Below are positions 22,023 to 25,153 of a DNA stretch of 44,427 nt, piece after piece. This stretch comes from Symbiobacterium sp. Its GTDB lineage: Bacteria; Bacillota; Sulfobacillia; UBA995; UBA9673. Position 1 is the first letter of the stretch; each line of letters starts with the position of its first letter. Where the stretch lies: the NCBI GenBank assembly GCA_020725405.1, contig DYFB01000039.1, positions 1 through 44,427 on the forward strand, in the 5' to 3' direction. Under the pieces are notes generated by a model. The model saw only the letters and a list, made by a program, of their open reading frames with translations. It made no database searches and was not told where the DNA came from. Both the position numbers and the translations under genes were made by a program.

Positions 22023-23291
22023 TTGACCATTCGAACGCGTCTCATTGTCTACGTGTCTCTCTTCCTGGCTATGGTCGGCTTCGGTATAACCGTGCCCGTC
22101 CTCCCGTTCCTTGCCCGGGAGCTCGGGGCCGGACCGATCGAGGTCTCCCTGCTGGTCAGCCTGTTCGCCCTGGCCCAGTTCGTGTCCGGGCCGGTCTGGG
22201 GGAGTCTCTCAGACCGGTTCGGCCGGAAGAAGCTCCTCGTCGCCGGGCTTCTCGGCTACTCCCTGTCCTTCTTCCTGAGCGGGTTATCGCGCACGGTAGT
22301 CGCCCTCGTCATGTCCCGAACCTTGGGGGGCCTCCTCTCGGCCTCCATCTTCCCCTCGAGCCAGGCCCTCATCGCCGACCTTACCGATTTGCGGGCCCGC
22401 GGTCCGGCCATGGCGGCGATGGGAGCCTGGATAAACCTCGGCTTTCTCTTCGGCCCCGCCCTAGGCGGCCTCCTCTCGCCCCTGGGCTACGAGTTCACCC
22501 TGTTCTCGGCCGGAGCCGTGGTGGTTGCCACCGCGGCCATAGCCGCCGCTTGTCTGCCGGACGCCGGGGCCGCCGCCCTCACCGGCCGAGCGGAAGCGGG
22601 ATCCCGTGACGCCGGGCCCGGCCCGGAGCTCGTCCCGGGCCGGGCCTCCGCCTGGCCCCGTCTCTCCGATCTCATCCGGGTGGCGAGAAGCCCGATAGCC
22701 CCATATCTGTCACTGACCTTCGCCGTCAGTCTGACCGGCTCCGGCCTGACGGCCCTCCTGGTCTACTTCGTCATCGACCGCTTCGGCGGGACTCCCAGCG
22801 ACGCCGGGCTGATCTTCGCCACCATCGGGCTGACGGGGGCCCTGGTGCAGGGCTTCCTCACCGGCCGGCTCATCACCGGCCTGGGCGAGCGTCGGGTGGT
22901 CCTCGCCGGCGCCCTGGCGACGACCGCAGGTCTTCTGGCCCTCGTGCCGGCCGCCTCGCTGGGGCCCGTGATCGCGGCGACGGTCCTCATCGGGCTGGGG
23001 ATGAGCACGACGCGCCCCGCGCTCACCTCAGCCGTCTCCTGCCTGACCCCCCTGCCCCAGGGGCTCACGATGGGTGTCCAGTCCTCCCTTGACAGCCTGG
23101 GACGCACGACCGGCCCCGTGCTCTGCGGATGGGTCTACGGGTTCGGGCTGACCCTGCCCTTCTGGATGTCGGCCGCCACCATGGTCGTCTTCACCGCTGT
23201 CGCTGGCCGCTGGTCGGCCCCCCGGCGGGAAGTCGACGCTCCCCCCACCAGGCCGGCCCCCGGCTCGAACGGCGCTCTCCTGCGGCGGTGA
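22023..23291 (+). CDS. Major facilitator superfamily transporter (drug-efflux-like)
   Basis: The 422-aa membrane protein has about 12 hydrophobic segments. Loop 2-3 carries the MFS motif A (GSLSDRFGRKKLLVAGLLGY), and the first helix is VYVSLFLAMVGFGITVPVLP. A Gly/Ala/Pro-rich central loop (about residues 175-215) separates the two halves, and a second-half motif-A-like GRLITGLGERRVVL is present. The family pattern is closest to tetracycline/multidrug proton antiporters, but substrate specificity cannot be read. I use TTG 22023, where the membrane protein begins. The frame is open for 147 codons upstream without similarity. It diverges from the radical SAM gene. Confidence 0.87.
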   Translation: MTIRTRLIVYVSLFLAMVGFGITVPVLPFLARELGAGPIEVSLLVSLFALAQFVSGPVWGSLSDRFGRKKLLVAGLLGYSLSFFLSGLSRTVVALVMSRTLGGLLSASIFPSSQALIADLTDLRARGPAMAAMGAWINLGFLFGPALGGLLSPLGYEFTLFSAGAVVVATAAIAAACLPDAGAAALTGRAEAGSRDAGPGPELVPGRASAWPRLSDLIRVARSPIAPYLSLTFAVSLTGSGLTALLVYFVIDRFGGTPSDAGLIFATIGLTGALVQGFLTGRLITGLGERRVVLAGALATTAGLLALVPAASLGPVIAATVLIGLGMSTTRPALTSAVSCLTPLPQGLTMGVQSSLDSLGRTTGPVLCGWVYGFGLTLPFWMSAATMVVFTAVAGRWSAPRREVDAPPTRPAPGSNGALLRR

Positions 23292-23384
23292 GGTCCGGGC
23301 CTCGAACGGTGGCGGGGCAGGAGCCCTGATTCCGGCCGAATCTGACCACAGGGCCGGATTGCGTCTAGCAGGGGCTAAGCCAAG

Positions 23385-23423
23385 TTATCCACAGTATCCA
23401 CAGGATAATCCACATAATCCATT
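23385..23423. promoter_or_regulatory. Cluster of DnaA-box-like 9-mers
   Basis: Four 9-mers lie in the same orientation: TTATCCACA (23385-23393, a perfect consensus), GTATCCACA (23394-23402), TAATCCACA (23406-23414) and TAATCCATT (23415-23423). They form the most AT-rich patch of a 260-base gap between the converging MFS and tsaD genes. The remaining gap, 23292-23384 and 23424-23552, shows a weak 7-bp hairpin (23331-23337 with 23352-23358) and a TTGACA at 23422-23427 without a clear -10. No gene is supported there. Confidence 0.65.
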
Positions 23424-23552
23424 GACACCGGCTTTATCCCTTGAACCCCATGCCTTGTCGGGCCGGGTGGCGAACGGTCGTTCCTTGGGAGGTGGTTCCA
23501 ACATGCTTCGACCTGCGTCTTGCTTCGTCCGGCTTCCCGCCCGGTTCGGTCG

Positions 23553-24629
23553 TCACCGGCCCCTCCGGCCGCGGCGTCGCTCCCGGCCGCCCAGTCCAAG
23601 TGACGGGTTCACCCGGACGGGCTCGGTCCCGGCCCACCCTGCCGCCAGGAGGAAGTGTCCCAGGCCGGCGACCATAGCCGCGTTGTCGGTGCACAGCTCC
23701 GGCGGGGGAACGAGGAGCTCGACTCCCTCCCGCTCGGCCCTGGCCTCGAGGGCCCGCCTGAGCCCCCGGTTGGCGGCTACCCCGCCGACGACGGCCAGCC
23801 GGTGGTGCCCCGTTACCTCCAGAGCCCGGAAGGACTTCTCGACGAGGACGTCGACCACGGCCGCCTGGAACGAAGCGGCGAGATCAGGGAGGTTGACGGT
23901 CCGGCCGGCCGCCTCGGCCTGGCGCACGTGGTAGATGACAGCGGTCTTGAGACCGCTGAAGGAGAAGTCGAGACTGCCGGGCTGGAGGTAGGCCCGGGGC
24001 AGGGCGACGGCCCCGGGGTCGCCGGCGTCGGCCAGCCGGTCGATCACGGGTCCTCCCGGGTATCCGAGCCCGAGATGGCGGGCCACCTTATCGAAGGCCT
24101 CCCCGGCCGCGTCGTCCCGGGTCTCGCCGAGGGGCCTGAACCTCACGTGCCCGCTCAGCTCGGCCAAACTGGTGTGCCCGCCTGAGACGATGAGGACAAC
24201 CATGGGCGGCTCCGGCGGCCGGAGACCTCTCCCGTCCGGCCCACCGCGGTCCGGGCCGGGTTCCAGGAACACCGCGTAAGCGTGGGCTTCGAGATGGTTG
24301 ACCGCCATAAGTCGCGTCCCCCAGGCCAGGGCGAGGGACGAAGCGCCGGCGAGACCGACGACGAGCGCCCCGACCAGGCCCGGGCCGGTGGTCACGGCCA
24401 CCGCGTCCAGGCCACGCGGGGCCACGTCAGCCTCACGTAGGGCCTGGTCCACAACCGGGAGGAACGCCTCGAGGTGACGTCTTGAAGCGAGCTCGGGTAC
24501 CACCCCGCCGTAGCGGCGGTGCAGGGCGACCTGAGAGGCGATGACGTTGGAGAGCACGTGCCTCCCGTCGCGGACGACGGCGGCCGCGGTTTCGTCGCAA
24601 GAGGTCTCGAGGCCGAGGACGAGGCTCAA
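23553..24629 (-). CDS. tsaD: tRNA N6-threonylcarbamoyladenosine transferase TsaD
   Basis: TsaD transfers threonylcarbamoyl from TC-AMP to A37 of ANN-decoding tRNAs, in complex with TsaB and TsaE. The 358-aa protein has GLETSCDETAAAVV, GPGLVGALVVGL, the metal ligands His112 and His116 (VNHLEAHAYAV), VSGGHTSLAEL, and DDAAGEAFDKVARHLGLGYPGG. The start is TTG 24629, overlapping the rimI TGA as TTGA, so translation is coupled. The 134-residue in-frame extension upstream lies inside rimI and is not real. The C-terminus ends in a basic tail. Confidence 0.95.
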   Translation of the reverse strand: MSLVLGLETSCDETAAAVVRDGRHVLSNVIASQVALHRRYGGVVPELASRRHLEAFLPVVDQALREADVAPRGLDAVAVTTGPGLVGALVVGLAGASSLALAWGTRLMAVNHLEAHAYAVFLEPGPDRGGPDGRGLRPPEPPMVVLIVSGGHTSLAELSGHVRFRPLGETRDDAAGEAFDKVARHLGLGYPGGPVIDRLADAGDPGAVALPRAYLQPGSLDFSFSGLKTAVIYHVRQAEAAGRTVNLPDLAASFQAAVVDVLVEKSFRALEVTGHHRLAVVGGVAANRGLRRALEARAEREGVELLVPPPELCTDNAAMVAGLGHFLLAAGWAGTEPVRVNPSLGLGGRERRRGRRGR

Positions 24630-25153
24630 GGCCCGCCGCCGGCCGGGGACAGGCCGGTTTCCCGCGGAGAGAGGTCCTTCCACATGACGATGGCATCCTC
24701 GCGGGTGTCGCTGTAGTAGTTCCGCCTGATGCCGGTGCTCCGGTAGCCCAGGCCTTCGTAGAGGCGCCGGGCCTCGGCGTTGGAGACCCGGACCTCGAGG
24801 GTCATCCGGGAGGCCCCGAGCTCGCGGGCTCGCGCCTCGAGGGCGGCCATCGTCAGGCGCCCGACCCCGTGTCCCCGGTACTCCGGCCGGACGGCGATGT
24901 TCGTGACGTGGGCCTCGTCCAGGACGACCCACATTCCTCCGTAGGAGACGACGACCCCGTCGAGCCGGCCGACGATGTAGCACGCGTAGTCGTTGACGAT
25001 AAGCTCCCGGTGGTAGGCCTCCCGCGACCACGGGGTCGGGAAGGAGATGCGCTCGATGGCCAGGACCTCATCCAGATCCCGGACGCGCATAGGCTCGAAC
25101 TTGACGCGCTCGAGGAACGCCGACTCTCCCGGGGCGCTTTCGCACTCGCTCAA
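24626..25153 (-). CDS. rimI: Ribosomal protein S18 alanine N-acetyltransferase-like GNAT
   Basis: The 175-aa GNAT protein has the acetyl-CoA motif VRPEYRGHGVGRLTMAAL and the RimI-typical VSNAEARRLYEGLGY followed by RRNYYSDTREDAIVMWKD. RimI acetylates the N-terminus of S18, and its gene commonly sits with tsaB and tsaD, as here. TTG 25153 lies eight bases after the end of the tsaE-tsaB gene, and the stop overlaps tsaD. The N-terminal 15 residues are variable. A close alternative is a more general protein N-terminal acetylase. Confidence 0.9.
   Translation of the reverse strand: MSECESAPGESAFLERVKFEPMRVRDLDEVLAIERISFPTPWSREAYHRELIVNDYACYIVGRLDGVVVSYGGMWVVLDEAHVTNIAVRPEYRGHGVGRLTMAALEARARELGASRMTLEVRVSNAEARRLYEGLGYRSTGIRRNYYSDTREDAIVMWKDLSPRETGLSPAGGGP

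Follow-up and report, generated by a model that had tools for sequence, protein, structure and literature searches.

In Bacillus subtilis, a cluster of DnaA boxes is flanked by gcp, which is tsaD, and ydiF, which encodes an ABC ATPase. This cluster occupies the gap between the two genes, directly 3' of gcp (PMC4447404). B. subtilis DnaA, in the ATP form, binds this 3' gap with a Kd of 0.15 μM, like oriC, and a 16-fold preference for ATP-DnaA was reported for the site (PMC4447404). Deletion of all six origin-external clusters of B. subtilis leads to early initiation, an effect that is strong only with all of them removed (PMC5295017; restated in PMC13220808). In Escherichia coli, datA depends on IHF and stimulates the hydrolysis of ATP, while DARS reactivates DnaA-ADP, DARS2 doing so with IHF and Fis (PMC5295017). 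According to a 2026 review, B. subtilis has neither datA nor DARS, and its regulators of ATP/ADP interconversion are unknown (PMC13220808).

The window, i.e. the whole stretch of 44,427 nucleotides from Symbiobacterium sp. analysed here, contains a DnaA-box cluster outside oriC, in non-coding DNA directly 3' of tsaD. The gap that holds it extends from the 3' end of an MFS transporter gene (22068..23291, + strand) at 23291 to the 3' end of tsaD (23553..24746, − strand; PF00814, E 5e-89; start codon provisional) at 23553. Positions 23385-23423 read, on the + strand, TTATCCACA GTATCCACA gga TAATCCACA TAATCCATT, and the sequence matches the description given in the initial annotation, i.e. four related 9-mers in the same orientation, arranged in two abutting pairs, in an AT-rich spot of GC-rich DNA (36% GC at 23383-23418, versus about 70% for the surrounding DNA). 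All the boxes are on the − strand. Box B (23385..23393; TGTGGATAA, which is TTATCCACA on the + strand) is a 9/9 match, and box A (23394..23402; TGTGGATAC, GTATCCACA on +), which abuts B, matches at 8/9 positions. An additional box, box 0 (23406..23414; TGTGGATTA, TAATCCACA on +; 8/9), lies 3 nt from A and is kept in the family. The 9-mer that abuts box 0 (23415..23423; AATGGATTA, TAATCCATT on +) is only weakly box-like and the poorest of the four (6/9), its GGATTA being largely kept in the family. In the tsaD orientation, the strong triple reads TGTGGATTA-TCC-TGTGGATAC-TGTGGATAA. It is followed by a 34-nt spacer (23351..23384, − strand) containing TGCTAGACGC (23361-23370), with CC(C/T)(A/T)GCTA kept in 4/4 family genomes, and by a degenerate box C (23342..23350, − strand; TGTGGTCAG; 6/9) at the spacing that is conserved in the phylum. 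A box-like AAGGGATAA is also present at 23434..23442 (− strand), of which GATAA is kept in 3/4 family genomes and ATAA in 4/4.

The closest known system is the B. subtilis gcp/ydiF cluster, rather than E. coli datA. In B. subtilis and in the window alike, the DnaA boxes are separate from oriC and occupy the gap immediately 3' of tsaD, with a convergent neighbour, and high-affinity boxes are present in both, as predicted from their sequence in the case of the window. The two differ in that the B. subtilis cluster has 10 predicted sites and the window three strong ones, with the MFS gene as the following gene, and the likeness rests on position, not on alignment. One sampled relative, G159, shows the arrangement described for B. 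subtilis, with the element between tsaD and a convergently oriented ABC ATPase gene. E. coli datA resembles the window as a non-coding DnaA-box cluster off oriC with a likely negative effect on initiation, but it is known for its IHF requirement and for promoting ATP hydrolysis, and is not located at tsaD. DARS1 and DARS2 of E. coli are also non-coding DnaA-box clusters away from oriC; they differ in their reactivating function, and the boxes of the window are all in one orientation. Nothing in the analysis supports the reactivating, DARS-type site that the initial annotation had considered.

The genome, a 97-contig draft of 2.23 Mb, was scanned by pattern searches. The strict pattern TTATCCACAN{0,20}TATCCACA misses the genome's own origin because the boxes there are TGTGGACAA, and the relaxed TGTGGAY pattern recovers both the tsaD cluster and the dnaA origin. 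With TGTGGAYN{0,25}TGTGGAY, four matches were obtained in the 2.23 Mb, two at the tsaD cluster and the other two immediately upstream of dnaA, on contig C16. The cluster is therefore the only tandem cluster found besides the origin, and the genome scan, which might have returned many equal clusters, did not. That origin is an ordinary rpmH-dnaA-dnaN origin, on a contig other than the window's. Its boxes upstream of dnaA (L092 3174-3315) are of the TGTGGACAA type, versus the TGTGGATAA type at tsaD, so that the better consensus is found at the off-origin site. No YabA was detected in this draft, and one HU-family gene is present (HU and IHF not told apart).

The cluster was found 3' of tsaD in all three other genomes of the same family (G001-G003), which represent three genera, and conservation in close relatives is thereby borne out. 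In the alignment of the four genomes, the core around TGTGGATTATCCTGTGGATACTGTGGATAA is near-invariant and most of the surrounding DNA has diverged; in all four, the pattern TGTGGATN{0,14}TGTGGAT matches only at the tsaD cluster. Members of the order and class also have clusters 3' of tsaD, with a spacing that is recognisably alike. In three relatives of the class (G015, G030 and G035), a DnaA-box pair was in addition observed upstream of a ribosome hibernation factor (hpf)-like gene, named by eye (L072 928-943; L077 1501-1516; L080 1501-1516), which is possibly another conserved DnaA site.

A sequence-only model was then built from 13 elements, excluding the window's family, and 299 genomes of the phylum were searched with it, the tsaD coordinates being taken from an independent search. 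The best 150 matches were considered, of which 75 are in genomes with a listed tsaD. Among these 75, 40 lie 3-522 bp 3' of tsaD, 40/40 on the tsaD strand (39 genomes), and this set includes all of the 16 best-scoring matches. Six more are located 1.6-2.8 kb 3' of tsaD (G292, G220, G195, G046, G315 and G165); in G292 (L245), the one examined, a 472-aa ORF separates tsaD and the element. When 20 further tsaD 3' flanks were inspected, from genomes without an adjacent listed match, at least three same-direction boxes were present in 10. Among 80 named tsaD loci, the model matched nine, six of which belonged to its training set; all nine are from Bacillota, on the tsaD strand and in the 3' flank, and no match was obtained in the tsaD loci of Actinomycetota, Chloroflexota, Deltaproteobacteria, Nitrospiraceae and Planctomycetota included in these 80. 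The named Bacillota with the element comprise Sporomusa malonica, a Negativicutes MAG, Clostridiaceae MAGs, Alkaliphilus peptidifermentans and Thermovorax subterraneus, and much of the phylum lacks it, including the Lachnospiraceae that were sampled.

The only constant neighbour of these elements is tsaD. The gene after the element varies and can be lgt, murC, nrdG-like, or a gene for 5-FTHF cyclo-ligase, UPF0029, an ABC ATPase, a PDZ/radical-SAM protein, an MFS transporter or another product; in G002 and G003, a PDZ/radical-SAM gene comes directly after, in place of the MFS gene. The convergent gap pointed out in the initial annotation does exist, the 3' ends of the MFS gene and tsaD facing each other, but as a feature it is incidental, since the next gene is co-directional with tsaD in most relatives. 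In ten genomes that are complete or nearly so and carry a tsaD-linked cluster, the distance from dnaA is about 8-28% of the chromosome length, so replication would reach the cluster relatively early in each round. This origin-proximal place gives weak support, because tsaD may simply sit there.

In the tsaD orientation, the common element consists of abutting boxes A and B, 33-35 nt, box C, 3 nt, and abutting boxes D and E. The B-C gap measures 33-35 nt in 49/53 elements, a geometry partly favoured by the model used for finding them. Since the model itself includes A and B, 25 loci matched only downstream of A-B were rechecked, and the A-B pair was still found at 33-35 nt in 14/25. The distance from the start of B to the start of C is 42-44 bp, about four helical turns, and the step from C to E measures 21 bp (about two turns). 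Phylum-wide, A is abundant in the 5' part of the spacer and T in its 3' part; a motif common to the phylum was sought in it, and AGCTA-like letters recur in the window's class only. In L209 and other elements, the stretch between B and C can resemble an intrinsic tsaD terminator placed inside the element (e.g. AAAAAGCCTGTATATCAGGCTTTTTTC).

An SOS/LexA-like palindrome, CGAACGGTCGTTCC, was noticed between tsaD and the cluster of the window (23471-23484, + strand), and all four family genomes retain its core, GGAAC..GTTCG when read in the tsaD orientation. A LexA-like palindrome (8/10 positions of CGAACN4GTTCG) was also detected no more than 40 bases beyond box E in 18/53 elements, often in front of lgt, and 17 of these 18 are within 0-2 nt of box E, compared with 0.9% in control stretches (palindromes directly after box E: L179, L182, L185, L190, L193, L200, L204, L233, L234, L236, L242 and others). 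A genome-wide SOS link is unsupported, as CGAACN4GTTC gave 18 matches versus 12 for the reversed control, without clear enrichment.

Concerning the version of the element present in the window, we prefer to read its triple as an added box followed by A and B, a reading for which the sequence provides good but not conclusive evidence. Alternatively, the triple would correspond to C-D-E, with A-B lost, and both MAFFT and the model do align it with boxes C-D-E. The first assignment is preferred because degenerate C/D boxes are found 33-34 nt beyond B in all four family genomes, namely TGTGGTCAG in the window, TGTGAATGC GGC TGTGGACGG in G002, TGTGGGTGG in G003 and a weaker pair in G001; none of 20000 draws of other offsets at the same loci attained the combined C/D score, an argument to be read with the relatedness of the four genomes in mind. 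The family, with a strong A-B side, a degenerate C-D and fewer strong boxes than usual, thus seems to have moved its strength to the A-B side while C-D decayed.

Several explanations of the cluster were weighed. The window contains 6 boxes with at most one mismatch, three of them inside 40 bases, and dinucleotide shuffles of the window gave two boxes within 40 bases in 1/400 cases and three in 0/400. A chance arrangement of box-like 9-mers, in favour of which one of the four is a poor match (6/9), can practically be dismissed on these grounds and is already refuted by conservation, the core being almost unchanged over four genera with diverged flanks and the phylum survey placing the element 3' of tsaD. 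It is also very improbable that the cluster is a relic of a replicon, as the initial annotation had suggested, or a second origin. DnaA boxes inside AT-rich DNA would suit such a site, but the element recurs in the same position adjoining tsaD over the phylum, which effectively refutes it, and the genome has its ordinary dnaA origin on another contig. Moreover, the locus has no replication gene nearby, as had been noted before, with neither an adjacent initiator gene nor a clear skew step at the cluster.

A DnaA-controlled promoter or terminator for the adjacent genes, comparable to B. subtilis sda, appears improbable, since the following gene differs by lineage and is sometimes convergent (in the window and in G159), and since the element is 1.6-2.8 kb away from tsaD in six genomes; in its favour, the element lies between tsaD and a co-directional gene in many relatives, and the terminator-like spacers would fit. 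A gene-specific promoter was rejected, the following gene being lineage-dependent and tsaD alone constant. Somewhat less doubtful, yet still unlikely in our opinion, is a site that actively processes DnaA, the Bacillota equivalent of datA (ATP hydrolysis) or DARS (nucleotide exchange), in which the fixed geometry would build a specific DnaA complex that changes the nucleotide state beyond holding DnaA. The strict phylum-wide spacing exceeds the need of a plain sink and makes such an effect worth asking about; the ATP-DnaA preference of the B. subtilis site and the HU-family gene, whose product is a possible bending partner, are consistent with it. However, cooperative binding alone could explain a fixed spacing, and the absence of datA and DARS from B. 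subtilis (PMC13220808) argues against it. With the same limited likelihood, the tsaD-linked element might be an ancestral five-box control site of Bacillota (A-B, 33-35 nt, C-3-D-E) on which one defined DnaA-ATP complex would change DnaA activity, i.e. a Gram-positive counterpart of datA/DARS.

We consider it likely that the element is an origin-external DnaA-box cluster which sequesters DnaA and postpones initiation, corresponding in position to the B. subtilis gcp (tsaD)/ydiF cluster. The DnaA-titrating site outside the origin proposed in the initial annotation is well supported by position, by conservation and by this characterised counterpart. Across Bacillota, the predicted boxes stand on the same strand at fixed spacing, 3' of tsaD, while the following gene changes; from these sequences we infer that DnaA would bind in this organism, assemble cooperatively on one face and delay initiation. 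DnaA, preferably DnaA-ATP, would bind cooperatively in two groups separated by roughly four helical turns, and the 42-44 bp between the starts of B and C would place both groups on one face of the DNA. The site would then keep DnaA away from oriC. We propose that, being origin-proximal, it would be duplicated soon after the start of each round, delaying the next initiation.

The kind of element described here is already known, and its Bacillota-wide link to tsaD and its five-box geometry appear to be unreported, no report of them having been found in the literature searched; conservation may have been addressed by Okumura 2012 and Ishikawa 2007. If the same gene and the same spacing are so kept across the phylum, selection has maintained the site for a very long time. 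Such phylum-wide upkeep of one cluster would contrast with a review in which the B. subtilis DnaA-box clusters are considered to be without a significant role in initiation control (PMC5295017), and would raise the question of how important the spacing is, and whether the site merely holds DnaA or also acts on it. The sequence model can be used for finding the site in uncultured Bacillota. The tsaD-linked patch probably acts as an ancient check on replication initiation that many Bacillota have in common.
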